Source: Hygrophila difformis (taxonomy: Eukaryota; Streptophyta; Magnoliopsida; Lamiales; Acanthaceae). From it: a DNA stretch of 64,000 nt. Every line of letters begins with the position of its first letter. Within the stretch, counting starts at the first letter, position 1. The stretch spans positions 20,676,444 to 20,740,443 of the forward strand of contig JAOANR010000010.1 in assembly GCA_030278955.1 (NCBI GenBank). The letters run 5' to 3'. The position numbers were made by a program, and so were the translations under genes. Positions 26,728-48,431 of this stretch are shown here, piece after piece. Under the pieces are notes generated by a model, which was not told where the DNA came from, searched no databases, and saw only the letters and a list, made by a program, of their open reading frames with translations.

Positions 26728-27987
26728 CTAAGCATCAAAGCTAGGATAGTAGGGATTGCACTCACTTAGCTGCTCTTTCACAAAATCTTCTTTCAACTCA
26801 TCTGGTAGTGCAAAATAGAAATCAATTTTTGATTCATCCTTGAAGATGTGTTGCCCAACCTTCATCATTTCAGGTTTGGTAAGCCATTGAAAACTCATCA
26901 ACTCCTTCACAAGTTCTTTCTTTTTGTCTTTGTCCTCAAACTCCCTCTTGAAGTATGCAGCTATTGTCTTGGTTTCTTCATTTTTTTCTTTATAGGCTGC
27001 TATGTAGTTCTTTATTTCTGCACATAATTCACCAATACCTTCCGTATCGTTTTCCTTTTTTTGGTTTTCTTCTTGCAATTCATAGTCCCATGGGTCAAAT
27101 CTTCTCTGCTTGGTGATTTGAATGCTGGTGCATCAACTTCCTCATTTATTATGACATTTGGAGCTTCTGTTGTAGTTGTTGGTGGTTCTTGAGCTTCAGT
27201 ATCACCTCCTTCATATTCTTCTCTGTTACCATCCTCATATTCGTCATTCTCACGAATACTTTCATTATCCATTGCCTTCACTGAATCTCCTGGAGTTTCA
27301 GCACCTGCCCCCGTAGCGGTATCAGTACCAAAGATGTGCGACAGATCATCATAATGAGGGAATGGCTTGTTCCTAAGTCCTTTAGCCGGGGGATGGCTCT
27401 ACAACATAAAAAAAATAAAAAATTTACAAACATTATCTCCAGGTTGTAAAAGTATATAATGTAAATAAAATATTGAATATGTCTTTATCATTAAAAAAAT
27501 GAAAAAGAAAAAATACCTTGACATAATCTTTAAACACATCTTCATCGCATTGTATACACTTCTCTTTATCACTCCAACCAAAACCACTTGCATTGGTACG
27601 CATTTCCTTAATAGCAGAAAATTGTTTTCTAAGTAGCTTGACTCTTGATAGGATATGTGGATTTACTAATATATTTGCTCCTGGCAGTTTTTCGTTAACC
27701 AACTTCCCAAGGGCTTCATAGTACCCTGACTTCAATCCATTATCTGCTTTCCATTTCATGCTCTCCTTCATCATAATCATACATTCAACCAGTACAGCAT
27801 CCTCTGCTCGAGTCCATTGTTTTTTTGTTACACTAGGTGTAGCAATTTCTACAATGTCGTCATGGTCAATAGCTTCCAAGTTAGAACCTATTTTCTTCCT
27901 TTTCTTTGTTGGTTCGTTGGGACATTGAACATGTGTCTTCCCTTTTCCCCTTCCATTCTTTGGGTGTTGATTGTTTGAAGCCTCCAT
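26728..27987 (-). pseudogene. PIF/Harbinger ORF1: Myb/SANT-like DNA-binding protein, frame broken
   Basis: Translation starts at ATG 27987 (MEASNNQHPKNGRGKGK). A basic tract (TKKRKK) is followed by a Myb/SANT-like domain at about residues 55-150 (KKQWTRAEDAVLVECMIMM, GYYEALGKLVNEKLPGANI, SRVKLLRKQFSAIKEM, GFGWSDKEKCI). An intron probably separates this from an acidic Glu/Asp-rich middle (about 27400-27080) and a helical C-terminus (27078-26728, IAAYFKREFEDKDKKKELV, SFQWLTKPEMMKVGQHIFKD). The acidic and C-terminal parts are in different frames, joined by an indel near 27070 within an A-rich stretch. In this superfamily ORF1 binds element DNA and works with the transposase. The gene lies downstream of, and parallel to, the transposase gene. 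Confidence 0.7.
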
Positions 27988-28107
27988 AATAAACCTTTAT
28001 GAATTATAACAAATGGATGCAGCCCAACAAACTCAAAATGATAAACAAAAGGATATTAATTTATTCATGTTCAGATATAGTAATAAAGAATACTGCATAA
28101 AAAGTTC

Positions 28108-28885
28108 TCAAAAATTCCTAGAAGTTTGCCAATTTGTAAACATTTTTTGGGCTAAATTTTCTCTAAAAGCTGACCAAGTGTCACTGGTCTCACAAAATCG
28201 TATGAAATTTTCATCCTCTTCAATTTGGCTAGTAGGACGAGCTTGTTCATCTTCTGTATCAAGTGGATCCACTGACATTTCATTTCTAATGAAATTATGA
28301 AGCAAACAACATGCAGTGATGATTCGACATTGGGTTTGCACAGGATAAAAGGATTTTTCTCGTAAAATAGCCCATCTAGCTTTCAAGATATCAAAACATC
28401 TCTCAATGCAATTTCTTGCTTGAGAATGTTTCATATTGAAATACTCTTGTGGTGTTGTGGGTTGGTAGCCATGCCTCCATTCATTCAAGTGATATCTCTG
28501 CCCTCTATAAGGTGCCAAAAAGCCCTCCCCATTTGTATATCCAGCATCAACCAAATAGTAACATCCTAATTGAAGATTAAACATAAGTAAAATAATATAT
28601 ATGTAGAAGCATATTTTTAAAATGCGAAATATCAAAGTAATTAGTACAAACTTTGTTTACCTTGTGGGACTTTCAATCCATTCTCTCTATTGAGTGCATC
28701 CCTTATTACTCTCCCATCTGCAGCAGACCCTTCCCAGCCAGGCAAAACATAAATAAACCGCATATCGGGTGTGCATACACCAAGAACATTTGTTGTAATG
28801 TACCTTTTCTATTCCTGTATCTAGGTCTATCATGAATTCCCACGTTTACTTTAATGTGTGTGCCATCTAGAGCCCCAAGACAACC
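28108..28885 (-). pseudogene. PIF/Harbinger DDE transposase, C-terminal part (left of the insertion)
   Basis: Catalytic blocks are recognisable: GCLGALDGTHIKV (first Asp) just inside the insertion junction, YYLVDAGYTNGEGFLAP (second Asp) and QARNCIERCFDILKARW (Glu). A genuine intron lies at about 28562-28660 (CACAAG|GTAAACAAAG ... TTCAATTAG). The C-terminus reads through DENFIRFCETSDTWSAFREN to a stop at 28108. A one-base indel near 28790-28800 shifts the frame between [10 protein letters not shown] and the following block, so the gene was damaged independently of the large insertion. The N-terminal half is 30 kb away at 58896-59434. Confidence 0.85.
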
Positions 28886-31785
28886 TGAAACTTTTGACAA
28901 TTTCCGTCCACGAGCATTTTCTAAAATATACCAGGTTAGATTTATTAAAAGAAAAGAGTTATGATTCACGGGAAAGGGTTTAGGGATGTATCAAGATTAT
29001 TAATCTTTTTATTACTCAAGTATGGTGCTTTGGTTTCAAATGGCGCTGTGGTCCTCTCTGTCATGAAATGTTGACAAATCTCATGGCACAGCCGGGATAG
29101 GTTGACCTTCAGCCTGTCACACTGAGGATCCCCGGCAAATATGCCATGATACTTCTCATCAATTCTTGCCATAAGATTTCCTACCATGAAACTTTTGACT
29201 GATTCCCACTACATGAGTATTTTCCGAAAATTCATGATCCTGGTTTAGATTTTATTTAACGAAATCAATTTATGATGGCGGGGTTGTGATTAGGGATATA
29301 TTTATAAGTAGTCATGTTTTTATTGCTCGTGTTTAAGAAACTGTGGCCCGAAAGCGCACGGTGTCAAAAATTGCAGTAATTTATAGTAAGACCGGATCGT
29401 TCACTGGAGGATGTGCGATAGAAGCAGGGCCCACGTCGTTTTACTAGATTTTCCATTCGTATTGCTCAATAGGTTTGAAAGGTGATTAACAACTACTGAC
29501 ATGAATTTAAACTAGGTTACAAAAGCATTTAAATTACTCTACAAAGCGAATAAATCTATTCTAGAAAGCGGGTAAAGGTTACTCTACGAATGCGATAAAC
29601 ATTATCTATGAAAGCGGGGGAAAAATTACATTGTGCCAACCGTGAAGCTGGATCACAATGTAGACAGAAGGGACAGGAAGAAAAGAATGAAAATTGGACA
29701 AGATTTAGATAAAGCAGTATTAAACTTCCATTTTTATACGCAGATCTTTGTTTGGGATAATTCTATCAGATAGCCAATTCTCATGCTCTCAATAATGCTT
29801 TCCCTTTAACAGACAGGTACTTACAATATGAGTTTACATGTTCTTAAGACCGCAAATTCTAAGATACCACAGATTTGTAACTGCTCTGGCCTGGGTGTGT
29901 TACTTCATCTGTGGTGGAAAAGCAACACCCGACACATCATTTATTGAAATGCCAAGTACTACTATCATTCTCCCATGTCACGCCCAAAGATTCGAATTAA
30001 GCCCTAAACTATCCCTTAACTGTCAATCCTAGTAGCAGTTACACAACTCTCAATACAACCGAGTGACCTCTAATGAAAGCAGTTAAAAGAAAGCGGTAAA
30101 GAAAGCATTTAAAGCCTATCACTCGGAGGTTTTGAAAATCTGACCCTGGTAGTAAGAGACAGCTCCCCATCAAGATGAAGGAGTATGGATCAAGAATTCC
30201 CGGCTCTCAGTGAACCACTAGTGTGTTCACTTCCTTCCGGGTGATTATGAGATACAAACTAATGAAACGGACTAATAAATTAGTTCGTTCCGGATGCACT
30301 CACTCAGGACTCAAAAGTAGGCTTTGGCAGAAGAGGATAGCAGTTGAAAGAAAACTCAACCCTATCTTAGAAAGTAACCAAGGCCTGGATGATGTTCCTC
30401 TAAGATTATTTACTACACTGTATTTGAGTCCAAATGGACCCCATCTCGGTGTAGCACTCAATCTTAGATTTCCATCAACCAGCAATTTTGGAAAATAATG
30501 GATTTGAAAATCATTCCCTATCAGGTACTAGACTCTCAGTTAAAACACAGACCCTTTCAGTCTAAAAGAGACCTAATCGCTGAATCTGTTTCTACTTTCC
30601 CAAAATACAACCCTTGACAGAATATGAATTAGTCATAACTGAAGAATTTATCCCTTACTCAGGTCCGGATTTTATAAAGCGATTTTTGTTGGAAGTCCAT
30701 TACGCAATATCTGTTTAAGATCTAGACTTCTATTGTCCAAGGGAAGGATCCCAAAATAATATAGACCACATTATCTACATAATATTATCATGCATAAGGA
30801 TATAGGGAAGTGTAAAATTAATTGACCCAAAATATAAATGCGGGTCTAGACAGAAGATGAAACACAGACATGAAGTAGTCAAGGGACCAAAGTAATGGCA
30901 GAATAATCAGGTGGACTGTAAACATCTACTGTCCAATTTCCCAATTACTCGGATGGAGCGAATTTAGACAGCTTAGACCCTATAATGGTGGTGTCAACAC
31001 CAGTTGGGCCTCCACTGTCTGTGAATTCGGATAAAAACCTACATGCTTCCCTTCTATAATGATCATCAGTTGGCATTGACTGATGCCAACTGACTCCCAG
31101 TACGGATTGGAATTTGGGTTTGGAAATTAAGATAATAAAAATAAAACTGTATCTGGATGGGAGTCAGCCGAGCAGCTATTATAACCCCGGATGGGTAAAC
31201 CGCCAAGGCTTCCACTGACAGTCATCCAGACCATGCAAAATAACACTTAGTAATTAATACTCAGATTACGAGCTAGTTATCCATGAGGGAATACCCACCA
31301 ACATTAATCTGATGTATTCTTTACTAATTGTTACACACAACACGCAAAGACAAAATCAAAAAGAAAAAGAAATAGAAGGAGATTCCTTGTATGAGAGACA
31401 TTGGTTTCTCATGCAAGGTTGTGGATTGGGTCCACAATTGATGATCTTAAATAATCCTTCCTACCATAATTAATTACAGTCCGGATTATCTGCTTAAGCC
31501 ATCGAGATTTTGTTTATACAAGAGTGTTTTAATGGCAATTGAACAAAGGTCCTTTAATCATGATGATTGTTGATGTTTGATTATTACTAATCTCAATCCT
31601 TAATCATTAATGAGTCAAGGGCTCAATTAATTAAGTGATGCAAATGGAGAATCAAAATTTGGGCAGCATAACACCCTATATTGCAATTCCAGAATTTTAC
31701 ACCTTAACCCGTGGGGTTATGATGTGAGTGTTGCAATATAATATAGAAAGAGAATGGAGATTGTTTAAGATTAAAATAGAGAGAA

Positions 31786-32335
31786 GTGAATCTTTGTCGC
31801 GATACCATAAGTTTTGTCGCGGTCCGAGGTCTGCGACATGGGTATCCCGACAAGTTTTTAGAATTTTTGGCAGCATAACGCCTCTTTGTCGCTATGCAAG
31901 GTTTTGTCGCGGAACGTGGTTCCGCGACAAGAGTGTTTCGCGACAAAGTGTTTTCGGAAAATTCCTAAGGCATTTGAACCTTTGTCGCTATGCATGGAAA
32001 ATTTTGTCGCGGAACGTGGCTCCGCGACAAGGTGTTCCGCGACAAAGTGTTCAAAGATTAAGGAACATGGCATAATTTTTCTGTCTCAGAATGAGATTTT
32101 GTCGCGGAACGTGGTTCCGCGACAAGATGATTCCGCGACAAAAAGCCATGCAGACAAAATGCAAGAGTTTGGCTCCTTTGTCGCTATGCATGGAAGGTTT
32201 TGTCGCGCAACGTGGCTCCGCGACAAGGTATTCCGCGACAAAGGGTTTTAAATTATGGAGACAAGTGTCTTGAAACACCTTGGTCGCGGAACAACCATTT
32301 TGTCGCGGAACGTGGTTCCGCGCCAAAAGGCGGTT
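31786..32335. repeat. GTCGCGGAAC inverted-repeat array, LTR interior copy (3' LTR)
   Basis: About 16 copies of TTTGTCGCGGAAC or its complement GTTCCGCGACAAA lie in 550 bp. Many are paired as hairpins with a 4-base GTGG or GTGC-type loop, interleaved with a TTTGTCGCTATGCATGG variant. The stretch is CpG-rich within an otherwise AT-rich LTR. The identical region in the other LTR is 57077-57626. Confidence 0.9.
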
Positions 32336-32976
32336 GGCGCCCGAGGTGGTTCAGGACAAAAGTCAGAAAAAGCAGAAATGAACAGTGGCATGCAAATAGC
32401 GTGATCTCACCCTATTTCAGATTAAAAAGCTATTCTAAGCTAAAAATAAGCAAGAAACATTCAAAATGAGGAAGAACATGCTTAAACAAAAATAAACAAA
32501 ACTGGGCAGAATATTAAAATAAAGCAAGAGTCCTAATCTAAGGTTTGATCACACATACACACAACATTATCCATAAAATGCTTAACAGTAAACATAAAAA
32601 GGCATAATGGGGGTCAAATGACCCCAAAATGAAAAAGAAAGCATAAATCCATGGGGTGTGAGACCCATTTCATGATTTGGGACACAAATGATGAATGTTT
32701 TCCCATATTATTGAAGGGGTGTTGTTAATACCCATGATTTGGGTATTACAAACCCTAAAAATAAGAGTTTAGAAACCAAAACATGGTGTAAAGTGGCTAT
32801 CTAAGTAACTGTGAACAGTAAAAGCACTAAACTAAACTAAACTAAGAACAAAAATTAAATAATACATGAAAATAAACCTAGACTACTCTACCTAAGGAAG
32901 AACTCCTAAGCTTGCCTTCAAGAGAGCTCAACCAAATTCCAATTTTTCCAACCCTTAGCTTATGGGAGACACCTCA

Positions 32977-32985
32977 TATTTATAG
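32977..32985 (-). promoter_or_regulatory. LTR TATA box (3' LTR copy)
   Basis: On the minus strand the sequence is CTATAAATATGAGG, about 620 bp inside the LTR. It is the best TATA consensus in this part of the LTR and is preceded by the 33057-33300 inverted-repeat array. Confidence 0.6.
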
Positions 32986-33056
32986 AAGTGTAACCCTAAG
33001 CCCATGGGCCTTGATTCTAGCCCATTGTGTCTTAAGACATCACACACATCACAGCT

Positions 33057-33300
33057 TTGTCTCGGAGCATCAAGTTGGTCGCGGAACACACTGCATGTGG
33101 CAAGGCTTCTCGACTGGGTCTTGTGTCTCTAATTGGGTGTCTTGGTCGCGGAGCATGCCTTTGTCGCGGAGCATGCCATCGCGACAAGGGCCATCGCGAC
33201 AAAGGTCATGGCTGGTCTCCTCTTCATCTGAGCTGCTTGGTCGCGGAACCCTCCTTTGTCGCGGAACACTGCATCGCGCCAAGGGGCTTCCGCGACAAAG
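33057..33300. repeat. GTCGCGGAAC inverted-repeat array upstream of the LTR TATA (3' LTR)
   Basis: About nine GTCGCGG or CGCGAC cores (TTGGTCGCGGAAC, TTTGTCGCGGAGC, CATCGCGACAA, TTCCGCGACAAA) lie in 245 bp, ending about 70 bp upstream of the TATA box in the direction of transcription. The same array is at 58348-58591 in the 5' LTR. Confidence 0.9.
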
Positions 33301-33604
33301 GTCTTCCTGGGCCTGCTGGATTGGGCCAGATGGGCCGAAAATATTCTTTTTGTGGGCTTTTCTATCTTTTTCCCATCTTTTTGTTTCCTTTTCTTTTTCT
33401 CATGTTTTTGGATTTTTCTAACATAAATATGTAATAAAATTACATATTTATGTCTTTTTCACACCAGCTTATTATTTTTACAATTATGCATAAATTAGTC
33501 CAATTCGACTGCTTTCTTACTTAATGTAAGACCGGAATGCGATCAAATGCCCGTTTAAGACACGGAAATGGATTGAAAATAATGGTCATTTCTGGCCATT
33601 ATCA

Positions 33605-33619
33605 ACATCCTCACATTTA
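33605..33619 (-). other. Polypurine tract next to the 3' LTR
   Basis: The minus strand reads TAAATGTGAGGATGT directly before the LTR start TGATAATGG. Its position fixes it as the plus-strand primer site. Two further copies of the motif, each again followed by TGAT, lie at 36003-36017 and 37895-37909. Confidence 0.75.
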
Positions 33620-35268
33620 ATACTGATCGTCCCCGAGCAGTCAGAGTCAATGTTCCTAAGAACACGGACTCTACATATTCAATTCATTTTCGTGGCTTCA
33701 TAAATCACATCCTTTTTGGATTGGGATAAGACAATAAAAAACTACAAGTATTAAATTCCCTTGATTGCAGTGTTTAATGAAATGATACTTGCTCACTACA
33801 TCGGGCCTACAAATCAAACATTATTATCAATCCTTCATGAATATCATGTTTGAAAGATGCAAAGATTAAAAATTAGAATTAAGGCATGACATGAACATTC
33901 TTAATGAAGCAGAGCCTCACTTATAAGAGAATCGGAAAATTCACTCACTCTCAATTGGGGTTTAATCATGAACGCTCAAAATCAAATTTAATTAAATTAT
34001 CCCATAAGCTCGCAATCAGACCAACTCGCCACCGGCTCATTTCTTCAAATCGAGATCACGAGGTCTTATTCGAGGGTTATAACGGGGCATACGGTTGTAA
34101 CATTAGGTGGGAAAAGGGAATTATTGGGCTAAGAAGTGGCAAGAATTAATTCTATCATAACTTGGCATTTTTATTTAAAATTTATGATCATCAATGTTTC
34201 TCTTTCTTTTTGATTTTCTTTTGCATGACATTAGACTATTGTCTAATTGCTTGTCATTCACAATTTATTTGTGTTGAAAGGGATTCAGCTCTTTTTTTTT
34301 TTTTTTGAATCGGTTTATGAGATACCGATTTATATGGATTGATGATCATACAATTTAATGCCTTTGATAGAATTTATCCTTGCACACTTGGGTTTGAATT
34401 TTTTTTTTTTGGTCTTTTTATAAGGCTAGCAATAATATAGTGGGCTTCAAAGAAAAATTAGGCTTATAGGCTCAAATTGGTTAATCTTAAAGGGAAAATA
34501 TTTCTGGGTTTGGATTTCAAAAGAAGGCCAAAAATTTGGGTTTTCTAGGTGCCTCGATCATATGCTCGATTTTGGGAATATGGCATGGTCTTGAATCGGT
34601 CCCAATTGCAAGTTCTAGTTTCCTTTAATCAAAATGATTTCACACATCAAAGAAAAAGAATGAGTAAAAGTGACTCATGGCTCAAATCTCACAAGGTTGG
34701 ATTGATTCATGTCATACAATATTCTCAAATTTAATCAAAGCTTAATTCTAACAATTTATTCAATCGAAATCTCTAACATGCAGATTTATTACCCAATAAG
34801 CTGATCGCATCATTAAATTTTTATAGCTCAAAACCTCAGGAATTCATGTCATGCATATTCTCAATTATATTATCCCAATTTAAAAGTTTGAAAATTTAAT
34901 CACAAGCCTAAATTCAACATGTGAATTTAGAGCAAGTTTATGCATATTTTTGCTGGTTATCTAATTTAAAGCAGTAAAGAGGCACTGCTGACATACTAAG
35001 TATGTCAACAGCATATTTTTGGTCTGACAGTCACTTATTCATCTCGGACTGCACAGACATCTTTTTCAAAAGGAAAGCAAGTAAAGATCTGTTCAGTGGT
35101 CTCAAAAACTGAGTTCCAATTTAGGGAAAGCAGTAAATACATCCGAGGCAAGGGATTCTCGTGCAGTTGGTACAAACCTGCACACACAAAAGATGAATCC
35201 CTTGCAGATTACTACTACTAGAATGGAAATAAAATAGAACCTAATAGACTGGGATTCATCTTCTTCCT
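33620..35268. other. Non-coding region between the F-box gene and the 3' LTR
   Basis: No gene was recognised. The region is AT-rich with two poly-T runs (34295-34306 and 34399-34410). It would form the 3' part of the element transcript downstream of the F-box stop codon. Confidence 0.5.
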
Positions 35269-37064
35269 TCAGAATAGGAATCTGGCCCAGTGGATGTAAC
35301 TGGTCAACTCACACCGCAGACACCAGCCATTATGGTTCATCATGGGCTCATGCCTCCTTGGGCAGTAGATCCTGTCCCCTTGATTTGCCCATAGGTATGG
35401 AGTGTCTGGGTCGTCCGTCATCCATGCGAGGACGTTGGTGGACGTATACCTAAAAACTGATCGATCTGTCACCATCCTGTCGATCATTCTGATTCCCTGC
35501 TCAACTTGGCCTTCATCCGTCTTACTCATAAGCATCAATCCGCGGGTGAAGATTGATGTCTTATGGTTGTCCTCAAGTCCCGGGCGTAGCAGTTCACAAG
35601 CGTGCTCCTCATTCCCCTCTGCAAATGCCCTGAGTGTTGGGATGAGCTGAAGATTGAAGTTTCCTGCCGTTGTGCATATTCGCAGGAATCTCTCCTTCTG
35701 CCGACGGATCCTTACTTGCCATCTCTTCACAGTGGAGGTGTTAACCTCGCATCGCTTGTACACGATGGTAAGGTTTCCAGCATCCCTGAGCTTCTTGCAT
35801 ACACGTTGTGCAGCAAACACCTCCCTGATTTCATCCTCCCCTATTCGGGAGAGAATTTCACCAAGGAGTTCGAGCGGTAAGTCCAGCAACTTAGTTCCTT
35901 CTGGTGCAGGATCTGGAATGGGAGGATTACCCCTGAAAAGATAAGAAGTGATGAATCCAAATTTTTATGCAATTTTCAGAAATCATTCAAGTTCAGAAAT
36001 CAACATCCTCACATTTAGAGCTTTGCTCTAGATGTGAGATTATTAAATTTCTGACTTGAATTTTGATTAAAAGCACATGTAAACAATATTTGGTTTTAAA
36101 TGGGCTAAGGGGCCCAAAATACAATTAAATTGGCCATTGGCCTAAAATCTTTTTAATGGGCCATTGGGCCCAAAAGTTTTTCAATTTTATTAAACAAGTC
36201 CGAGACACTTGTTGGAAGTGGAATGGAATGGATAGATGGAAATGGAATGCTCGAATATTGGAATGTGCAATGGAGACGTGGCGGAACGGATCTGCTATTT
36301 CTGGATAGCTTGGACTGTTTGGACAGTTAAAGCATCCCAAAATTTGCAAACACTGTTTTTAGTTTTAAAATGGTTGACTTGTTTTATTTAATAAAAGTGG
36401 GATGTGAGTGGTCCCATTTTTGATTTTGAAAAGGATAGCAGTTGGGTGACAAAAATACTGCTATCTTACTCACACTAGTGTTCCATTGGGAACAAAAGAC
36501 TCAAGTCAAACATTAAACAAAAATAACTCTTTTTGTCTTTTTCTAAAAGGTTGCTTTTATTAAAAGTGGAAGCTTCCCATTGGGTGTTTGTACTATATTT
36601 CCATAAACAAACAAACATTTATTCCCATGAGATTTCTAACATGGGAACAAATGTGCCCAAAGAGATCTTACCTCTTTTATTACACCCACTCAACACTGTG
36701 CACATCACATCAAGATCAATCAAACCAATAACATCAAGATATTCAAAACAATACCCAAATGTTCATCAGTTTGTTCTTTCCAGTTTTCAAACTTCAAAAT
36801 CTTTAAACCATTACCAGTTTCAAAATGGAGTTTCAAATGTTTCAAAATGGTGCTCTCAGCAGAGAGCACTCAAAAACCTCCAAAAATCTAAAGTTAAATG
36901 TGCACACTAACAACACCACACCAAGAACACAACAAAACAAAAACAAAAATGAAGGGTCCGAATGGGTGCTATGAACATGGCGAAAACAGGGTTTACCCTG
37001 CCCTCCTTGGCTCGGGTCTAGGCACGGGTCCAAGGTTTGGGAGGAGTCCATGAAATCGGTCCAT
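35269..37064 (-). CDS. Captured F-box protein gene (At1g67623/At2g35280-like), two exons
   Basis: The model is complement(join(35269..35932,36997..37064)), encoding 243 residues. The ATG at 37064 has a good context (A at -3, G at +4). Exon 1 ends GCAGG|GTAAAC in phase 2. The 1064-bp intron ends TCTTTTCAG, and exon 2 begins in the matching phase. Exon 2 (numbered from LLDLPLELLG at 35889) has an F-box at about residues 3-45 (LPLELLGEILSRIGEDEIRE, VFAAQRVCKKLRDAG). A helical SEL1-like stretch follows at 88-140 (ELLRPGLEDNHKTSIFTRGL), then a C-terminal Cys/His cluster (C176, H180, C190, C193). F-box proteins link substrates to SKP1-CUL1 ubiquitin ligases. The gene is intact and lies on the retrotransposon's strand between pol and the 3' LTR. 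Exon 1 is a prediction without homology support; exon 2 is solid. Confidence 0.75.
36003..36017 (-). repeat. PPT-like motif, second copy (inside the F-box intron)
   Basis: The minus strand reads TAAATGTGAGGATGT followed by TGATTTC, the same 15 bases as the true PPT. An imperfect inverted repeat, CACATTTAGAGC / GCTCTAGATGTG, surrounds it (36010-36037). Confidence 0.8.
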
Positions 37065-37215
37065 AGTTTCCCCTTGAGAAATGGAGTGCAAGATTGCGAA
37101 GAACACGTGGTGTTCGTTCGGATGAGAGAAAAATGGGGGAAAGAAGATGAAGAAGTTGGAGGAAGTTGAAATGACAAGTGAGGGTGAGAAGAAACTGGAG
37201 GGGGTGGGGGGGGGG

Positions 37216-37224
37216 TATAAATAC
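37216..37224 (-). promoter_or_regulatory. TATA-like box upstream of the F-box gene, next to a G/C run
   Basis: The minus strand reads AAGTATTTATACCCCCC, with TATTTATA about 155 bp upstream of the F-box ATG; the leader between them is pyrimidine-rich. The same bases on the plus strand give TATAAATAC after a G10-type run (37201-37215), so the direction of any promoter is ambiguous. Confidence 0.4.
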
Positions 37225-37232
37225 TTGAACTT

Positions 37233-37548
37233 TTGTCGCGGAATCCGAGACTTTGTCGCGGAACAAGGTTCCGCGACAAGGCATGGCGACATCAGAGAGG
37301 TCGCGGAGTCGAGAGTTGGGCGCGGAGTCATGCTCCGCGACAAGGCTATCGCGACAAAGTTCAGTATGGAGACAAGGTCAACGCAGGTTGTGTCGCGGAG
37401 CAGGGCTTGGTCGCGGAGTCACGCTCCGCGACAAAGTGCATCGCGACAACCAACGGGGAAGGGTTAAGAACAAAAGAGGGTTTGTCGCGGAATAGGGCCT
37501 GGTCGCTATGCATGACATCGCGACAAAGGACCTTCCGCGACAAAGAAT
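37233..37548. repeat. GTCGCGGAAC inverted-repeat array upstream of the F-box gene
   Basis: About 14 GTCGCGG or CGCGAC cores lie in 316 bp, including the perfect pairs GTCGCGGAACAAGGTTCCGC and GCGGAGTCATGCTCCGC. The array starts about 346 bp downstream, in minus orientation, of the third PPT-like motif. In the true LTR the comparable array begins about 304 bp after the LTR start. Confidence 0.9.
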
Positions 37549-37894
37549 TTTGAATTTTCAAATTTCTTGGACTGGGCCTGAGTGTGATGTTGGGCCTGAG
37601 TCCATTTTATTTGATTTGAGCTGAATAAATTCAGTCCAAATAAATTCAAAATGCTGGGCTAAAAATTTAAATAATCCACTTGCATAAACTTAGGTTGGGT
37701 CAGTTCCATTTATCTGTGAATTTCATTCCGGGTATTGAATTTCTTCAAATTCCGAGAGCGTTTTCTCAGACTTATGGAACTAATCCAACCAAGAACCTGG
37801 TTTTCCATGTTACTCTTTTCTGCTCCTCTTTTTGGTGGTTCCGAACTTCTGCAAGACAGATGAATGAAACGCATTAGATTTTCTCCAAATATCA

Positions 37895-37909
37895 ACATCC
37901 TCACATTTA
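37895..37909 (-). repeat. PPT-like motif, third copy (just after pol)
   Basis: The minus strand reads TAAATGTGAGGATGT followed by TGATATT. It lies about 140 bp downstream of the pol stop, next to an inverted repeat TTTAGAGT / ACTCTAAA (37905-37926) and an AT microsatellite (37970-38012). Confidence 0.8.
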
Positions 37910-38046
37910 GAGTCTTAGTACTCTAAATGTTCAATTGATCTTTGGGTACTTCCTTGTCGTGAAACAAATACTATAAATATATACTATATATATATACTAT
38001 ATATATATATATAAACTGAAATTTTTGTGTTTTTAAATGCTGTTTC

Positions 38047-41000
38047 TTATTGAATGTAAGCCGGGTCTGCCACTGCTTGGCTTTCTTTCTCCGGATCGAA
38101 CTGTCCGAGGTACTCTTTTAATCGTTGTCCATTCACCACTATATCGCCTCTATCAGTTCGGATCCTGACAGCTCCATTTTTGAACACCTCTAGTACTTCA
38201 TGTGGTCCTTCCCATCTGGATTTGAGCTTTCCGGGGAACAGCTTTAACCTAGTATTGAACAATAACACATGTTGACCAATATAGAAATACTTAGGTTTGA
38301 TCCGGCGATCGTGCAACTTCTGGGTCCGCTCCTTATAAATTCGAGAGCTTTCATAAGCTTGCGCTCGTATTTCCTCAATTTCATTGAGGTCCAACTTACG
38401 TTTGCTCTGAGCAACTTTCGGATCGAAGTTAAGCGTTTTAACGGCCTAGTAAGCTTTATGCTCTAGCTCTACAGGCAAATGACAGGCTTTTCCGAAGACC
38501 AGCCTATATGGAGACATCCCGATGGGAGTCTTATATGCTGTGCGGTATGCCCATAGAGCATCATTGAGCTTACGTGCCCAATCCTTTCGGGTTTTCCCGA
38601 CAGTGGCTTCGAGTATATGTTTGATTTCGCGATTGGATACTTCGACTTGACCACTAGTCTGAGGATGGTAAGGCGTGCCTATCTTATGGAGGATCCCATT
38701 TTTACTCATTAAAGTTTCAAAACCTTTATTAATAAAGTGTGTTCCTCCATCAGATATCACCACCCTAGGTACGCCAAATCGATTGAAAATGTTGTTCTTG
38801 AGGAACTTGATGACTTGGCTACCATCATTGGTCGGTAATGCGACAGCCTCGACCCATTTGGATACGTAATCGACAGCTACCAAGATATAGTAGTTTCCAC
38901 CAGATGGTGGAAACGGTCCCATGAAGTCAATGCCCCATACATCAAAGATCTCAAGAGTGAGAATCCCTTTTTGGGGCATCTCATCCCTCTTGGAGATGTT
39001 TCCTAATCTTTGGCATCTGTCACAGCCTTTCACAAATGTCCTGCAATCCTCATATATGTGAGGCCAATAAAATCCACATTCGAGGACCTTGTGGGCCGTT
39101 CGAGCGGGACCATGGTGACCTCCATATTCTGATTCATGGCATTTTCTGACAATTTGATAGGCTTCATGCTCGGTCACACATCGCCTGATTATTGAATCAG
39201 GGCAGTGTTTGAAGAGATAAGGTTCTTCCCAGAAGTAACTTAATACGTCTCGTTTGAACTTATTCCTCTGATGATAGTTCGAAAACTGTGGGGTTATTCC
39301 GCACGCCAAGAAGTTAGCGATGTCGGAAAACCATGGACAAGCTTGATTATGCAGATGCAATGCGAACAACTGTTCGTCCGGAAACTCTTCATTAACGGCT
39401 TTTTCCTTTTTATCATTATCTAATCGAGATAAGTGGTCAGCAGCACCATTATCTCGACCTCGCCTATCTTTTATTATGATGTCGAATTCTTGCAACAGAA
39501 GTACCCACCTGATTAATCGAGGTTTTGCATCTTGTTTGCTAAACAAGTATCTCAATGCTGTATGATCGGTGTACACTATGGTCTTCGTACCTATCAGATA
39601 CTGTCTGAACTTGTCAAACGCGAAGACTACAACATACATCTCTTTCTCCGTTGTGGTGTAGTTAACTTGGGCTTCATTCAGGGCATGACTTGCGTAATGA
39701 ATTACGCAGTGTCTCCCATCCTTATGTTGTCCAAGAACTGCGCCTACGGCGAGACCACTAGCATCGCACATTACCTCGAAAGGCAGTGACCAATCGGGTG
39801 GTTGCACTATCGGTGCAGAAACCAACATCTTCTTGAGCGTGCCAAAGGCTTGGACACACGCTTCATTTATTAAGAAAGGATTTTCTTTACAAAGCAGATT
39901 AGTGAGCGGCTTGGCAATTTTAGAGAAATCTTTAATGAATCGCCGGTAAAAACCGGCATGCCCTAAGAAGCTCCTAACTGATTTGATCAAGTTAGGAAGA
40001 GGGAGATTGGAAATGATAGAAACTTTGGCTGGATCAACTTCAATGCCTGCACGAGAAATGCGATGACCTAACACTATGCCCTCAGTGACCATAAAATGGC
40101 ACTTTTCCCAATTTAAAACCAAGTTAGTGTCCTCACACCTCTTTGAAATCTTAGCAAGATTGGTCAAACAATCTTCGAACGTATCTCCATACACAGAGAA
40201 GTCATCCATGAAAACTTCAATGCATTTTTCGATAAATTCGGAGAAAATAGACATCATGCATCTTTGAAAAGTAGCAGGTGCATTGCACAAACCAAAAGGC
40301 ATCCGTCGATAGGCAAAAGTGCCGTACGGGCAAGTAAAAGTGGTTTTATCATGGTCTTCACTGGAAATAACAATCTGATTATAACCAGAATAACCATCCA
40401 AAAAGCAATAAAACTCTCTCCCTGCCAACCTCTCGAGCATCTGATCAATGAATGGCAATGGAAAATGGTCCTTGCGTGTGGCCTCGTTCAGCTTCCGGTA
40501 GTCGATACAAACTCTCCATCCGGTCACTGGCCTGGTTGCAACCTCTTCTCCTTGCTCATTCTTGGTTATGCACATCCCTCCTCGTTTGGGTACGACCTGC
40601 ACTGGGCTAACCCATTTGCTATCAGAGATAGGATAGATTATACCAGCATCTAAGAGCTTGATAACTTCTTTCCTTACCACTTCTTGCATAAGGGGATTTA
40701 ATCGCCTCTGAGGTTGACGAGAGGGTTTAAACTCTTCTTCCATTAGAATCCTGTGCATGCAAATAGATGGGCTTATTCCTTTTATATCAGAAATGGTCCA
40801 ACCTATTGCATGTACATGTTTCTTAAGAACGACCACCAGAGCATTTTCTTGCTCTTGGGAGAGCTTAGCCGAAACAATCACGGGTAACTTTTTATGTTCT
40901 GCGAGAAACGCATACTTGAGATGATCGGGTAATGTTTTAAGTTCAAGCTCTGGTGGGCATTCAACGGAAGGGAGTAGTTTGCGAGAAATGGGTAGTGGGA

Positions 41001-41136
41001 GAACAGATTTACCTTCGGGATCCTGCATCAGTACAGGATCCTCTTCTTCCTCTTGGTTGGCGTCATCATGGAATTCGATGCCGTCAAACTCCTTCAGATC
41101 CCCTGTTTCGGGATCGGCAAAGTGAACGGCTTTGCA
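38047..41136 (-). pseudogene. Athila-like pol: RT, RNase H and integrase, two premature stops
   Basis: A single long frame encodes RT ([29 protein letters not shown], catalytic FMDDF near 40200), RNase H ([16 protein letters not shown] near 39765; [10 protein letters not shown]), the integrase zinc finger (H..H..C..C, with CDRCQ, about 39150-39000), the integrase core ([40 protein letters not shown]) and a basic C-terminal domain ending at 38047. Two in-frame stops break it: TGA at 41137-41139 between protease and RT, and TAG at 38446-38448 where the family has a conserved Trp after HKAY. Both look like single G-to-A changes. Gag and protease lie just upstream. Otherwise the frame is intact, which fits a recent insertion. 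Confidence 0.92.
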
Positions 41137-42045
41137 TCATTTGTGCTCCACGCCGGCAGGCTTCAGTACCTGCTTTGATGGTTCATCCAGCATCATTTCA
41201 CAATCGAGTTCAGAGTCAAGCTCTTCCCTAACTATTACATTTTCAAATGAAAAACAAGAACTGTCATTCGGAAATGTCTGCAATTTCTCCATATCAAAGA
41301 TGATCTCCTCGCCATCGACCCTTAAGGTGACCTTTCCGGATTTAGCGTCAATCAGTGCACCACCAGTGGCTAGAAATGGGCGTCCAAGGATAAGCGGCAT
41401 TTCAGAATCTTCTTCAATGTCGAGGACGATGAAGTCGACCGGGAAGAGAACCTGCCCGGTTTTGACCACAACATCCTTAAGGATTCCTACGGGCTGAGTG
41501 ATCGATCTGTCTGCAAGTTGCAGTCTCATCTTGATCGGTTGAATTTCTCCAAGCTTAAGGCGAACAGCCATAGCTAGTGGCATCACATTGATGATTGATC
41601 CTAGATCACAAAGCCCCATACTCACTTTGGCCTTTCCGAATTGTACTGGGAGTGTGCAACATCCGGGGTCCTCTTTCTTTTCAGGCATTCTCCTCTGAAC
41701 GATGGCACTGCATGTGCTGTTGAGAATAATTACCTCTTCCTGCTCAACCTGCCTTTTTCCTGAAATCAATTCTTTCAAGAACTTAGCATAGATGGGCATT
41801 TCGGAAATCATTTCTGTGAGAGGAATGGTTATCTCTACAGACTTTAATCGTTGCAGAAATTTCTTGAATTTAAGATCATGTTCTTTATTTTTAAGACGCG
41901 CAGGATAAGGAATCCTGGGCATGTACTTGTTATTAGCAATTTTTGGTGGTGAAGGGAAGGAAGTTGTACCTTCACCTGTACCCTTATCTGCTTCAGCCGT
42001 TTCAGGCGCAGTACTCTTCCAGATTTCAAGGTTATTGCCTTGCAT
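41137..42045 (-). pseudogene. Athila-like protease region
   Basis: The frame runs from an overlap with gag to the TGA at 41137. It contains the pre-protease block (MPRIPYPARLKNKEHDLKFK, FLQRLKSVEITIPLTEMISE, MPIYAKFLKELISGKR) and a retroviral-type aspartic protease (CTLPVQFGKAKVSMGLCDLG, with the catalytic Asp in CDLGSIINVMP, and the DMPLILGRPFL-like EMPLILGRPFL flap/C-terminal motif near 41400). Part of the N-terminus may be out of frame: the frame change from gag lies near 42010-42025 and is equivalent to a single indel. The downstream stop makes translation into RT impossible without readthrough. Confidence 0.85.
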
Positions 42046-43880
42046 TGCGGGTTCTTTTCCGCAGTGCTTGGCAATGTACCTTTGTCCCTTTTCTGCATCT
42101 CATTAGCCATCTGTGTAACTTGGGTCTCCACATTTCTGATGGAGGCCTGCAGTTGATTGTTGATCTCTTTCTGACTAGTGATGAAATCAGTCATCAGATT
42201 CTCAAGCCTTGAAGGAGGCTTTTGATTCTGATTCTGATTTTGATTCTGATTCTGATTCCACTGGCCTTGGTTTGGGACAAACTGAGGCTGGAAACTCTGA
42301 TTGGGCTGAAAGTTCTGGAAGTTCTGAGGCGGCCTCTGCTGGATTTGAGGTTGGAAACCTGGATTCTGAAAGTGTTGGCCCCTGTTCTGAACAAATCCCT
42401 GATTCTGCTGAGGGTTGAACTGTTGTTGCTGTGGCTTGTTTAAGAGATGTGAATTCAGGGCGTTGTTGTTTGAATAAGACAAATTCGGGTGTCTATTTGG
42501 AAAGGCTCCTGCATAGTTACAGCTCTCAGCTGTGATTTGCTCGCATGTGTCAGTTGCATGAGCACCTTGACACAGTCCACAGATCACATCAGTTTGCTGT
42601 CCCTGCGCAGAACTTCCGACTCCTTGATTTACAGACAACGCTGCCACTTGCTCTTGAAGCTTTTCAATGTCTGACTTCTCTACTGTACCTACAGCACATA
42701 AACCACGAGGGGGAGTGAGATTACCATCATCAGTTAGAACAGAACGGTTTACACTCATGGCTTCAATCTTTGCCCAGGCTTGGTCCATCGGTATGTAGAG
42801 CAAATGTTGACCACCAGCAGCATCGAGCATGGATTTCCATGCTGGGGTCAGACCACTGTAGAACTTTCTCAGTCTCTCCCAGTCATGGAAACCATGTTGA
42901 GGACACTTCCTGAGCAGGTTGAAGAATCTTTCCTTTGCATCATACAAGGACTCGTCTGGTTTCATTTTGAATTCCGCAATTTTGGAGCGGCATTCATCCA
43001 CCTTGGACTCCGGGAAGTATTTTGCTAGGAAGTTTCTGATCACATCTTCCCATGTAGACTTCTGATTTACAGGCAGTGACTTGTACCATGTTCGTGCCCC
43101 GCTTGTCAGAGAGAAGGGAAATAGCCTTAGTCGAATAGTGTTTGCAGGTACATCACGATTTTTAATCATGTCACACAATTCTAGGAAGGTTTGCAGGTGA
43201 TCATGGGGGTCTTCATGGCTTGCTCCGGCAAACTGGTTGCTCTGGACTAGATTGATTAGGGCCGGTTTCAATTCGAAGTTCCTGGCCAAGAATGGAGCTT
43301 GTCCAGGAATATTCAGATATGGCTCTAAAATCGGCTGCATGTAATCAGCAGCAGCTGCTGCTTGATGATTGTTCTCAGGCCCGCCTTGGTACTGCTGTGG
43401 GTAGTAGTTCTGAGGCATGAAATAGTTCCTCGGGTCATTGAAATCATTCGGATTCGGGGGATTCTGATGGGGGTTATGGTATTGCTGATTTTGCTGGTTT
43501 TGGAAATTTTGCTGATTTGGTTGGTTCTGGTTGTTTGGTGGGTTTTGGTTCGGATTGGGAGGGGGTGCCTCGAAGTGTTGCTGCTCCATGTTTGGTGGGT
43601 TCCCACCTCCTTGTATGATCTGGGGAGGGGGATCATCCAAATCATCGTTATCAGCATCTTCGGGGTCTTCCTCAATGTTGTGAAGTGGGGGATTGGGTTG
43701 AATGATTGGTGGGATGTCAGGGTTTGCCATCTCGGAAATATCGCTGCTGGTGCTTGGCGAAAGTAATGCCTGTCGTTCCCGTTCCCTTCTTCGTTTAGTC
43801 TCCGCCCTAAGACGTCGAGCTGTCTTTTCTATCTCTGAATTAAACGGGATCTCGGCTGGCGTCTGCTTCCTCCTTTGCAT
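41844..43880 (-). CDS. Athila-like Gag
   Basis: The frame has 678 codons. The start at 43880 is 160 bp after the 5' LTR. The N-terminus is basic (ARRLRAETKRRRERERQ), followed by a long Pro/Asn/Gln-rich region (about 60-180). The Retrotrans_gag capsid domain is at about residues 215-350 (GASHEDPHDHLQTFLELCDM, LRLFPFSLTSGARTWYKSLP, WEDVIRNFLAKYFPESK, KMKPDESLYDAKERFFNLLR). A Cys/His motif follows at 434-446 (CGLCQGAHATDTC, CX2CX3HX4C), then a Gln/Asn-rich tail. Gag forms the particle that packages element RNA. Its last 60 or so codons are probably a wrong-frame extension after the frame change near 42020. Confidence 0.9.
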   Translation of the reverse strand: MQRRKQTPAEIPFNSEIEKTARRLRAETKRRRERERQALLSPSTSSDISEMANPDIPPIIQPNPPLHNIEEDPEDADNDDLDDPPPQIIQGGGNPPNMEQQHFEAPPPNPNQNPPNNQNQPNQQNFQNQQNQQYHNPHQNPPNPNDFNDPRNYFMPQNYYPQQYQGGPENNHQAAAAADYMQPILEPYLNIPGQAPFLARNFELKPALINLVQSNQFAGASHEDPHDHLQTFLELCDMIKNRDVPANTIRLRLFPFSLTSGARTWYKSLPVNQKSTWEDVIRNFLAKYFPESKVDECRSKIAEFKMKPDESLYDAKERFFNLLRKCPQHGFHDWERLRKFYSGLTPAWKSMLDAAGGQHLLYIPMDQAWAKIEAMSVNRSVLTDDGNLTPPRGLCAVGTVEKSDIEKLQEQVAALSVNQGVGSSAQGQQTDVICGLCQGAHATDTCEQITAESCNYAGAFPNRHPNLSYSNNNALNSHLLNKPQQQQFNPQQNQGFVQNRGQHFQNPGFQPQIQQRPPQNFQNFQPNQSFQPQFVPNQGQWNQNQNQNQNQNQKPPSRLENLMTDFITSQKEINNQLQASIRNVETQVTQMANEMQKRDKGTLPSTAEKNPQCKAITLKSGRVLRLKRLKQIRVQVKVQLPSLHHQKLLITSTCPGFLILRVLKIKNMILNSRNFCND

Positions 43881-44022
43881 AGAACAACGGCTTCAATGAT
43901 GACAGTACCTGTACAATCCCCAGGTTAGAATTGGTTCTGAAGGTGAGTATTTATAATTATATGTATAGGCTAATCTAGGAGCAATGAGGAATGTAATTCT
44001 CTAATAAAACGGCGCTGCATCC

Positions 44023-44040
44023 TCCCCGGCAACGGCGCCA
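44023..44040 (-). other. Primer binding site, tRNA-Asp type
   Basis: The minus strand reads TGGCGCCGTTGCCGGGGA immediately after the 5' LTR end. This is the standard tRNA-Asp PBS of Athila-type elements. The leader from here to gag is only about 140 bp. Confidence 0.9.
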
Positions 44041-45817
44041 TGAAACTTTTGACAATTTCCGTCCACGAGCATTTTCTAAAATATACCAGGTTAGATTTAT
44101 TAAAAGAAAAGAGTTATGATTCACGGGAAAGGGTTTAGGGATGTATCAAGATTATTAATCTTTTTATTACTCAAGTATGGTGCTTTGGTTTCAAATGGCG
44201 CTGTGGTCCTCTCTGTCATGAAATGTTGACAAATCTCATGGCACAGCCGGGATAGGTTGACCTTCAGCCTGTCACACTGAGGATCCCCGGCAAATATGCC
44301 ATGATACTTCTCATCAATTCTTGCCATAAGATTTCCTACCATGAAACTTTTGACTGATTCCCACTACATGAGTATTTTCCGAAAATTCATGATCCTGGTT
44401 TAGATTTTATTTAACGAAATCAATTTATGATGGCGGGGTTGTGATTAGGGATATATTTATAAGTAGTCATGTTTTTATTGCTCGTGTTTACGAAACTGTG
44501 GCCCGAAAGCGCACGGTGTCAAAAATTGCAGTAATTTATAGTAAGACCGGATCGTTCACTGGAGGATGTGCGATAGAAGCAGGGCCCACGTCGTTTTACT
44601 AGATTTTCCATTCGTATTGCTCAATAGGTTTGAAAGGTGATTAACAACTACTGACATGAATTTAAACTAGGTTACAAAAGCATTTAAATTACTCTACAAA
44701 GCGAATAAATCTATTCTAGAAAGCGGGTAAAGGTTACTCTACGAATGCGATAAACATTATCTATGAAAGCGGGGGAAAAATTACATTGTGCCAACCGTGA
44801 AGCTGGATCACAATGTAGACAGAAGGGACAGGAAGAAAAGAATGAAAATTGGACAAGATTTAGATAAAGCAGTATTAAACTTCCATTTTTATACGCAGAT
44901 CTTTGTTTGGGATAATTCTATCAGATAGCCAATTCTCATGCTCTCAATAATGCTTTCCCTTTAACAGACATGTACTTACAATATGAGTTTACATGTTCTT
45001 AAGACCGCAAATTCTAAGATACCACAGATTTGTAACTGCTCTGGCCTGGGTGTGTTACTTCATCTGTGGTGGAAAAGCAACACCCGACACATCATTTATT
45101 GAAATGCCAAGTACTACTATCATTCTCCCATGTCACGCCCAAAGATTCGAATTAAGCCCTAAACTATCCCTTAACTGTCAATCCTAGTAGCAGTTACACA
45201 ACTCTCAATACAACCGAGTGACCTCTAATGAAAGCAGTTAAAAGAAAGCGGTAAAGAAAGCATTTAAAGCCTATCACTCGGAGGTTTTGAAAATCTGACC
45301 CTGGTAGTAAGAGACAGCTCCCCATCAAGATGAAGGAGTATGGATCAAGAATTCCCGGCTCTCAGTGAACCACTAGTGTGTTCACTTCCTTCCGGGTGAT
45401 TATGAGATACAAACTAATGAAACGGACTAATAAATTAGTTCGTTCCGGATGCACTCACTCAGGACTCAAAAGTAGGCTTTGGCAGAAGAGGATAGCAGTT
45501 GAAAGAAAACTCAACCCTATCTTAGAAAGTAACCAAGGCCTGGATGATGTTCCTCTAAGATTATTTACTACACTGTATTTGAGTCCAAATGGACCCCATC
45601 TCGGTGTAGCACTCAATCTTAGATTTCCATCAACCAGCAATTTTGGAAAATAATGGATTTGAAAATCATTCCCTATCAGGTACTAGACTCTCAATTAAAA
45701 CACAGACCCTTTCAGTCTAAAAGAGACCTAATCGCTGAATCTGTTTCTACTTTCCCAAAATACAACCCTTGACAGAATATGAATTAGTCATAACTGAAGA
45801 ATTTATCCCTTACTCAG

Positions 45818-47983
45818 TGTGATGCCCAATAATTATTAATTGGAAATATAGGATTTAATTTATTTTTGGCTGACTTTATTTTAATATATATATGTATATG
45901 TATATATATATAAAGAAAAGGAAATTGGTCTGCAAGACTTGGTGAATGAGTCTCCAATCTAGTAACTGCTACATATTTTCAGGAAAAATCGTTTCCCCAC
46001 TTTTGACCCACTTTCCAAGATTCTCTCACTCGTATTCAGTATCCAGTATTCAGTTGAAACCCCATTGAGCTTATTTTAAATACCCACTCTTCAGTCTGCT
46101 TTCCCTATTCCGTCCAGAGATTGCAAGTGGTGGGTATACTTCTAATTCGTTCCTGTTCTTCCTCATCATTGTGATGATGCTAACTTTCATTTCTCGTTTT
46201 CCTTTCTCGTGGATAATTCTTACAGTTTCTTTGTGAGGGTTTGTGGTACTTCTTCAAGCTTCAATCTTGTCAACCCGTTGCAGATTCGTTCATACCAAAG
46301 ATTTGTAAGTCAATTTCCCTCTTCTTCACTGCCGTTTCCACATCCCTTATTTTCTGAGAATTGGATTATGTGTCATGACTTGAAATTGTGTGGAAATTCT
46401 TGAACCCAGCCTCGGTCATGCGTTCATGTTTGGTGTTTGCTTACTATTGAATCGACAAAACCCCATATTCCTAAAGATCTGTTTCATTGCCCTTCTGTTG
46501 ATTTGCTCTTGTTTATCTTACTATCAAATTCCATTTTTGTATCAGTTTTGTATAAGAATTCGTGTATGTGTCCTATGTCATCCTCTTCTTCAAACTTCAA
46601 TTTTTCCTGGCACCTTGGTTGCATTTGTTTATTTTTCACTTATCTGCAGACCATTTCGTTGAATCTTAGAATTTATCCGGTCATGAATATGTCGTGCTTC
46701 CTCACTCCCTTCTGTTTTACTTATTAAAGTGCCAAATTCCAATTTTTGATTCAGCCATGTATGTGTAATGGAGAATTCTGGGTTCTGTCTCTTTTTCACT
46801 TACGGTCTTCTCGTGCTCAATTTTCTTTATTCCCAGATTTGCTTCAGAGATGCACAAATTCGCCATAGTTATACATACATCTATATGGGTCTGTGTCTAT
46901 TTGTGTAGGTGTACTCTTTTTCCCAGCAACCAAACTTCAATTGATGGATTACACTATTATGTGGGCCAGAAAGTTTTATTTTAATTTTTATTTGCCCTTC
47001 TTCGTGTCATTCTCGGTCAAGTATCGAAGATGGAGACAAATTCTCACAATGTTCCATGTTTGTCTTGATATGTGGGTCAGGGAGCACTAGGATTAATTTC
47101 AATGGTTGCTTTTCATTTTCTGCAATCTATCTAGTTCTTGGCAGTGATGGTTTAATTGAAATTATCATGGAATTGGTTTCTATATTTTGAGAAAATTTCG
47201 GTGATTAATAAAATTTAAGTGTTCGGTCTTTGGCACGGTTTTTGGTAAAATCTATGTCTAATGAAACCAATGCATGATGTATGGCTATTTGAATATTGGA
47301 TATTGGATGAGGGTAATTGTCCCTCCTATGGGTAGAGCCTGCATGTGTCTATAACCCTAGACAGTCGGAGTACTAGTCTAGGACACCGGTGTTAGTAGTT
47401 ATAGAGTCCTCTGCATGGCGAGAGATGATATATGTGATTATTGGATCGGTATGGTGCATTGGATTGGTTTCATTAACATATGTGTTACCTACATTATAAA
47501 TTTTTGGAATTTAAATTCGGTAAATTATCACTGTCGGTATATAATTATTCTTTTGTGTCGTTGAGTCAACCCTAAGTCTCCAGCATGTGTGGGATAGGGG
47601 ATTGACTTACTCAGCATTGCTGATGTTGTTGCTTTCACTCTTTTTCAGGATAGGTGACTGAGATTGACATGGCATTTGCATTGAGATTTTGGGGATTTTC
47701 TCGAAATAAGCTTTTATGTCGTACTATTTCGTTTCGACCCTGCGAGGTCAAATTGGTATTTTAAATAATTACTTACATTTTTACCGTGAACTTTATATTT
47801 ATCAGCATATGTACTAATACGATTTTGAGAAATTATTATCTTATGGCTAGCAACTATGGTTTTAAATGTATTTTAAATTTTAGCCTTAGCATTTTCTATT
47901 TAAGTTAACTTGGTGGTGAGCTTAAATAGAAAATGTGGCGGTAACACCCTTTCTTCCGCTGTTTTAAAATGGGGGGTGTTACA
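45818..47983 (+). repeat. 5' LTR of the chromovirus (2166 bp)
   Basis: It runs from TGTGATGCCC to GGTGTTACA and is matched by 53783-55948. By eye I count about 11 differences, including two compensating 1-bp indels and a changed second base in the right copy (TT for TG). It contains a TATA-like AT run near 45901. Confidence 0.95.
45901..45914 (+). promoter_or_regulatory. LTR TATA-like region of the chromovirus
   Basis: TATATATATATAAAG lies about 90 bp into the LTR, followed by a purine-rich stretch. The right LTR has the same at about 53868-53881. It is positioned like a promoter, though the AT dinucleotide run makes it uncertain. Confidence 0.4.
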
Positions 47984-47986
47984 AAG

Positions 47987-47997
47987 TGGTATCAGAG
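47987..47997 (+). other. Primer binding site, tRNA-Met type
   Basis: TGGTATCAGAG lies three bases after the 5' LTR end. This is the usual initiator tRNA-Met primer site of chromoviruses. Confidence 0.85.
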
Positions 47998-48431
47998 ACA
48001 GGTTATTTTAAATATATTAAATATATATTTTTAATTATTCTTCTAGTATGTTTTAAAAATTATTTACGTTTTTTTTTCTAACAAATATTAAATATTTCCT
48101 CATACTACTAGCATTTTAAAACTGTGTATTTTTACTTTATTTAGTATGCTATCTGACATGATTTATACACATTTGCTAGTACAAAATCTATTTTAACAGT
48201 GGATACTTATAATTTTGTCGAATTTATATAATTAGTACGGTAACGTTGATATAATTTTTAGCATATAGTGCGTAAATGTTTAAATACATAGTAAATTATA
48301 AATATTTGTTGCATTAAATTATAATTTAAACATTTTTAAATTTTGGGGGGTGGGCATTTGCATCCATATTGCACATCTGACTTGTTGATAATTATGGATA
48401 TATAATATGATGTTGGAATTGGATTATTTAG

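Follow-up and report, generated by a model that had tools for sequence, protein, structure and literature searches.

A predicted F-box gene resident in the env slot of a high-copy family of Athila-like retrotransposons in Hygrophila difformis

An open F-box gene with a predicted intron, lying between pol and the 3′ LTR of a plant retrotransposon, raises the question of whether a single copy happened to capture a host gene or whether the gene belongs to the element. We addressed this question in a window of 64,000 nt from Hygrophila difformis (JAOANR010000010.1, positions 20,676,444–20,740,443, forward strand; all positions given below are window-based) and by searching the 915 Mb host assembly. 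Our reading, to which we assign a probability of about 0.85, is that the F-box gene is the third gene of a high-copy Athila-like family, with which it has spread, and that it has split into alleles and has been kept by purifying selection.

Element A and its F-box gene

Self-comparison with blastn, boundary read-out and Pfam delimited an Athila-like Ty3 LTR retrotransposon, element A, at 28886–58895 on the minus strand. It has LTRs with TG..CA ends, a 5-bp TSD (CAACC, at 28881–28885 and 58896–58900), a primer binding site (TGGCGCCGTTGCCGGG, 44025–44040, by sequence read-out), which we take to be of the tRNA-Asp type, a gag and a pol with the order RT-RNaseH-IN. The 3′ LTR spans 28886–33604 (4719 nt), and the 5′ LTR (44041–45817 plus 55954–58895) is split by a nested element, designated B; a delimitation of the LTRs as 28886–30662 was dropped with the recognition of element B inside the 5′ LTR. 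The Pfam matches (gag, RVT_1, RNase H and rve, with no chromodomain among them) place a gag and protease region at 41137–43892, where the two genes occupy different frames in the window copy, and the RT, RNase H and integrase of pol at 38047–41136, all on the minus strand. Relatives of this pol were found in many plants in a protein collection, none of them named Athila among the matches listed; we class the element as Athila-like. An Rfam scan of 28886–44040 gave no match at gathering cut-offs. The LTRs differ at 3 of 1776 plus 13 of 2946 compared sites (16 of 4722 in total), indicating a young insertion.

Element B (45818–55948, plus strand; TSD CTCAG) is itself a Ty3 element, with gag and pol ORFs and LTRs that are 99.5% identical. 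Because it sits downstream of the TATA-like box of the LTR, a full-length RNA of element A from the window copy would need to cross 10 kb. Element A in turn interrupts a PIF/Harbinger-type transposase gene (26728–28885 plus 58896–59440, minus strand), with a DDE domain in its left part according to Pfam and a right part (ORF 58877–59440) assigned by reading only. At 61178–64000, also on the minus strand, there is a 940-codon open frame that by eye resembles a LINE reverse transcriptase.

The initial annotation described a two-exon F-box gene of 243 codons, with phase-matched splice sites and no stop, located in the linker that separates pol from the 3′ LTR and oriented like the element. The gene model was borne out by the joining of the exons, and its position by Pfam and the LTR boundaries. 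Exon 1 (37064–36997, 68 nt) and exon 2 (35932–35269), both on the minus strand, join in phase into 243 codons plus a stop, with no internal stop, across a predicted intron of 1064 nt (35933–36996, minus strand; donor AGG/GTAAAC, acceptor TTATCTTTTCAG). Exon 1 opens at the first ATG downstream of a TATA box (TATTTATA, 37223–37216), behind which the start codon is preceded by 154 nt without ATG (box plus leader at 37065–37223, minus strand, by sequence read-out), and exon 2 contains the F-box, a TPR_27 domain, a Cys/His-rich C-terminus and the stop. In Pfam, the deduced protein scored 21.9 bits for the F-box, only narrowly over the curated cut-off of 20.5, and 30 bits for TPR_27 (PF23310; cut-off 27). 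NCBIfam gave no match, solved structures compared by sequence yielded nothing relevant, and AlphaFold, run with the single sequence of exon 2 alone, returned a poor model (pLDDT 40). None of 10 other ORFs in the linker had a Pfam match over the cut-off.

By ad hoc splice-site scores, the acceptor of exon 2 ranks first among the 242 AGs in the linker. Of the 100 GTs found from 36000 to 37895, the donor of exon 1 ranks fifth, with a stronger one at 36671, and is the top-scoring donor that closes an in-phase ATG exon. The G+C content of exon 2 is 51%, versus 34–35% in the flanking intron and linker, and in Markov simulations open frames of 220 codons or more appeared in 2 of 1000 sequences of 696 nt with the composition of exon 2 and in 1 of 1000 sequences of 4431 nt with that of the linker. 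We regard the F-box gene of the window copy as confirmed at the level of sequence, as a real gene with two predicted exons, open and phase-matched.

The gene is surrounded by repeated motifs of the element. A 15-mer that runs from the PPT into the 3′ LTR, of which it takes in the first four bases, has three copies in the window, always within element A: at the true junction (TGTGAGGATGT/TGAT, 33601–33615, minus strand, by sequence read-out), inside the intron at a distance of 66 nt from exon 2 (35999–36013) and just after pol (37891–37905). The two inner copies are carried by hairpins (35985–36065, inside the intron, fold z −6.8; 37885–37935, z −3.3; both minus strand) that stand ahead of acceptor-like sites, near 37849 in the case of the second, unlike the true junction, which has no special fold (z 0.01). 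Additionally, an array of palindromes (TTGTCGCGG/CCGCGACAA) at 37225–37560 (minus strand) also occurs in the LTR, where it stands partly just ahead of the TATA-like box; there are 10 palindrome cores in the 831 nt before the F-box TATA and 19 in the 3′ LTR, with none in gag-pol and none in 33616–36996. When the promoter block of the F-box gene was compared with the LTR, the CGCG array aligned beyond chance (0 of 300 shuffles as good) and the stretches on either side of it did not (125 and 182 of 300 shuffles as good); the idea that the block is a whole, diverged LTR was rejected, the CGCG array alone aligning beyond chance. The 27-bp CGCG palindromes common to the LTR (31884–33300) and the inner promoter (37225–37560) are a possible regulatory or methylation target.

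Considering the CGCG array and the PPT copies, the F-box gene lies in the env slot amid the signals proper to that slot. The layout is comparable in Sireviruses, for which passages of PMC2829016 describe repeated PPT copies together with palindromes rich in CG, both close to the TATA of the LTR and ahead of the third ORF; for Athila4 and Calypso, they describe an extra PPT in the linker. Sireviruses belong to another superfamily (Ty1/copia) and have other sequences, and their likeness to element A is in layout only.

Copies across the host genome and selection on the F-box exon

Searches of the host assembly with exon 2 produced 2060 first-look candidates as DNA and 6313 as protein, figures that are not counts of confirmed copies. 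The 40 DNA matches scored were all 92–100% identical over 674–692 of 692 bases, and the 150 protein matches scored, of which 136 were free of stops, all covered 218 or more of the 220 residues at 85–100% identity. Five longer copies, from the lower ranks of the protein listing, had an identical layout (pol, hairpin-PPT, CGCG array, leader, exon 1, intron, hairpin-PPT, exon 2, linker, PPT and LTR), with the PPT core GTGAGGATGT at all three places in every one of them. Since these copies had been picked by exon 2, we added anchors in the intron and in the pol tail. With the intron as query (2855 candidates), the 40 matches scored were all full length, and exon 2 was present at the 20 best intron-anchored places, the window included. 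Its frame was open in 14 of the 20, had one nonsense codon in four and a frameshift in two; the donor AGGGTAAAC was kept in 19, and the acceptor was identical in 17, changed in two and not found in one. The pol tail with the first hairpin was scored at 40 places; 15 are co-listed with an exon 2 or intron match at the right distance and two further ones, when read, both contained exon 2, so that this check covers 17 of the 40. Exon 1 had 68 nt in 28 of 30 copies and the TATTTATA TATA was present in 26, counts in which one copy read in the wrong orientation (L035) and one with other sequence upstream (L014) are scored as misses. Ten other copies were scanned with Pfam: all 10 exceeded the TPR_27 cut-off, two exceeded the PF00646 cut-off for the F-box, and three had no F-box match at E 0.01.

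The predicted F-box gene is, then, a resident gene of a high-copy Athila-like family and not a one-off capture. The initial annotation had portrayed it as an intact host gene captured with its intron; the intact frame and the predicted intron stand, but the portrayal is too simple for a resident gene that lies among CGCG palindromes common with the LTR and PPT-like hairpins, including one within the intron itself.

Retention across copies together with a dN/dS below 1, the test that the initial annotation had proposed, gave a positive outcome, with exon 2 in 20 of 20 intron-anchored copies and dN/dS values of 0.19–0.22, which derive from samples of best-scoring copies and are biased low to an unquantified degree. 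In the protein-ranked set (28 of 30 copies, two with indels being excluded; internal stop in 6 of 28), dN was 0.037 and dS 0.206, a ratio of 0.18. With 33 copies the ratio was 0.186 (codon bootstrap 0.134–0.255), and by parts it was 0.20 for the F-box, 0.16 for TPR_27, 0.17 for the C-terminus and 0.70 for the 22 codons between F-box and TPR. Sixteen of the 20 intron-anchored copies were comparable and gave 0.217 for codons 1–194, codons 195–219 being left out because the comparison is out of register there; the value for all codons, 0.343 (0.251–0.475), is inflated by this register shift at the end, one allele being a codon shorter. Shared variants had an N:S ratio of 51:74 and singletons one of 48:56, both far below a neutral expectation for N/S of 2.53, computed with the mutation spectrum of the intron, CpG included; the low ratio of the singletons reveals a sampling bias toward open copies. 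In six copies, pol had a dN/dS of 0.078 versus 0.20 for exon 2, and the pol piece was open as one frame in two of five other copies. Purifying selection on the predicted F-box protein, weaker than that on pol, is well supported by these comparisons.

A further argument of the initial annotation was the contrast between two stops in pol and the open F-box frame of the same copy. Both stops are there, at 41137 and 38446, in frame and absent from five other copies, and the contrast is true as observed; it is, however, weak evidence, because the LTR differences (16/4722) lead to an estimate of about one substitution expected since insertion in the 732-nt coding sequence, and we rejected it as a sign of selection at the age of element A.

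A second family with five F-box ORFs

As a profile, TPR_27 gave 150 scored matches at 50–55 bits in the host assembly, of which 147 were stop-free and 119 had a 260-codon frame by our own count, and one match, below the cut-off, among 14 control genomes. Three matches were read, including L064 and L066. In L064, an Athila-like pol tail (54% identical) is followed by a same-strand series of five distinct ORFs of the F-box/TPR_27 type, designated F1 to F5, with 257, 257, 247, 272 and 260 codons from stop to stop. Beyond F5 there are two hairpins with the CTCTAAATGTGAG motif, as in the window, and then a long charged ORF with one stop; upstream, pol is 75% identical to that of the window over 894 residues, with one stop. 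Matches over the cut-off were F-box or F-box-like in F1, F4 and F5 and TPR_27 in F4 and F5, the remainder falling below it. The window protein is 32–35% identical to F1–F5 (E 1e-38 to 1e-24), and these are 26–50% identical among themselves.

Ahead of both F2 and F3 there is a 17-nt ATG exon that ends in GTAAGC and, by reading, the acceptors of F2–F5 have the same phase as that of the window gene. The space available to F4 and to F5 is too short to hold a separate first exon for either, and these two ORFs may serve as alternative last exons. The common splice phase suggests that an intron-bearing gene was captured before the two families parted, or that such a capture happened twice.

All five ORFs are present in order in L069, with F1 and F5 open, and F2–F5 are present in L065, with F3 and F5 open and no match to F1; pooled pN/pS values relative to L064 were 0.196 and 0.185, respectively. 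Pairs of F1 and F5 at a similar spacing occur four times among the matches listed, L069 being one of them, and from frame length and score we infer that the remaining TPR_27 matches belong to the five-gene family. In L064 and L068, two hairpin-PPT motifs are followed by a long charged ORF of env-like character; the part of it that was scanned had no Pfam match, and comparison of the ORF with the window gave no relative at E < 0.1. A viral contig collection searched with the F-box exon, pol and F5 of the second family gave no matches. As to L066 (C10:34088200–34090700), its TPR_27 match of 52 bits is split over two frames and does not resemble the element genes; it is not an element of the five-gene type and is perhaps a host gene of the TPR_27 family.

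Possible function, rival readings and related elements

The F-box gene most likely encodes a receptor that would recruit substrates to the SCF ubiquitin ligase of the host. Transcription would probably start from the TATA inside element A, at the env slot, and the short first exon would be spliced to the F-box exon; in the protein, the F-box would dock on the host SKP1 and the TPR-like and Cys/His parts would bind a target, a host or element protein that would thereby be brought to the SCF ubiquitin ligase and ubiquitinated. Viral F-box proteins act on silencing, which makes counter-defence a natural guess; the silencing suppressors P0 of poleroviruses and p22 of criniviruses, in the accounts of them drawn on here, are likewise F-box proteins from a plant parasite, although the likeness is one of description only. 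By analogy, a host silencing or restriction factor would be our leading guess for the target, a tentative one, followed by control of the element's own proteins. It is also possible, although we would not expect it on balance, that Athila-like elements carry diversified putative SCF receptors, one or five in tandem, against host silencing or restriction, as an arsenal replacing env or standing beside it.

Alternatively, the F-box protein might act for the element itself and not against host defence; degradation of the element's Gag or integrase, as a means of setting copy number or timing, would be one example. The promoter-like block of the gene, with the CGCG array of the LTR, agrees with this, as production of the protein could be independent of the genomic RNA; yet outside that array the block has no likeness to the LTR beyond chance. 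We consider such a service rather unlikely.

Less probable still is that the low dN/dS mostly accrued in host genes, by repeated pick-up or by exon swaps with a diverse host family, without the element needing them. Exon 2 of the window copy does seem exchanged relative to its own intron: it differs from those of L039–L042 by 6–14% per 200 nt, versus 1.5–7.5% in the last 800 nt of the intron, while L039–L042 differ among themselves by 0–9.5% in exon 2 for the pairs compared. This points to an exchange of exon 2 between elements, the window copy being a probable mosaic at 35246–35850. Likewise, exon dS is about four times the mean intron divergence in the family (0.20 versus 0.05), and the protein exists in two C-terminal forms, of 220 and 219 residues, both with conserved YCP and WCLRC; of 19 intron-anchored copies that were read, 7 have the shorter form. 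A host source is, however, at odds with exon–intron junctions and flanks that are common to all checked copies and with alleles that are 85–100% identical to each other. No other protein scored as a relative in a collection with many plants (0 of 276 candidates scored at E 0.001 and 0 of 161 at E 10), a negative that excludes fairly close relatives only, because the method needs shared exact words, and a non-exhaustive search found no host donors. The At1g67623-like label given in the initial annotation is best taken as tentative.

That the gene is a mere passenger, a captured host F-box gene carried without function, was rejected as highly improbable on copy number and dN/dS: although F-box scores are weak in many copies and passages of PMC7264820 report transduced genes of plant LTR elements mostly in one or few copies, the gene is in every copy that could be checked, with a dN/dS of about 0.2 and its splice sites kept, and a second family carries five of them.

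The preferred reading, a third gene kept by a whole family, has partial parallels. The Athila/Calypso/Diaspora clade appears to share the pol type and has long LTRs and a third-ORF slot in the same place, but its slot holds an env-like or ORF-1 protein, whereas here we find an F-box/TPR_27 gene that has a TATA and a predicted intron to itself and, in the second family, five F-box ORFs plus a long charged ORF. Another parallel is provided by the eORFs and aORFs of plant LTR elements, additional ORFs, some with host-type domains, that are kept in many copies of a lineage; an example is the plant mobile domain of Ogre, present in 57% of these elements according to sections of PMC6317226. Extra ORFs in the env slot are described in parts of PMC6317226 and PMC7264820 as heterogeneous and mostly without a known domain. 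Captured host-type genes occur inside LTR elements of rice, sorghum and maize (excerpts of PMC8764390 and PMC3726574), and the former mentions one F-box "LTR-gene" in Thlaspi arvense; those are single captures, in contrast to the family-wide resident gene under selection reported here. The portions of the main texts of PMC6317226 and PMC7264820 consulted do not mention an F-box, and none of the papers listed in the literature searches describes an LTR family in which an F-box gene is resident. Extra env-slot ORFs and single captured genes are, in sum, already known.

The function of the third ORF in plant elements with an env slot is called speculative in a passage of PMC6317226; here, with recognizable domains, measurable selection and a natural series of one and five genes, it becomes testable by simple binding and degradation assays. 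Our results also suggest that the F-box genes annotated in plant genomes include some that belong to transposons. Finally, the survey in PMC6317226, as described in its text sections, counted ORFs of at least 250 codons, a threshold that exceeds the 243 codons of the F-box gene, suggesting that surveys with this limit miss such ORFs.
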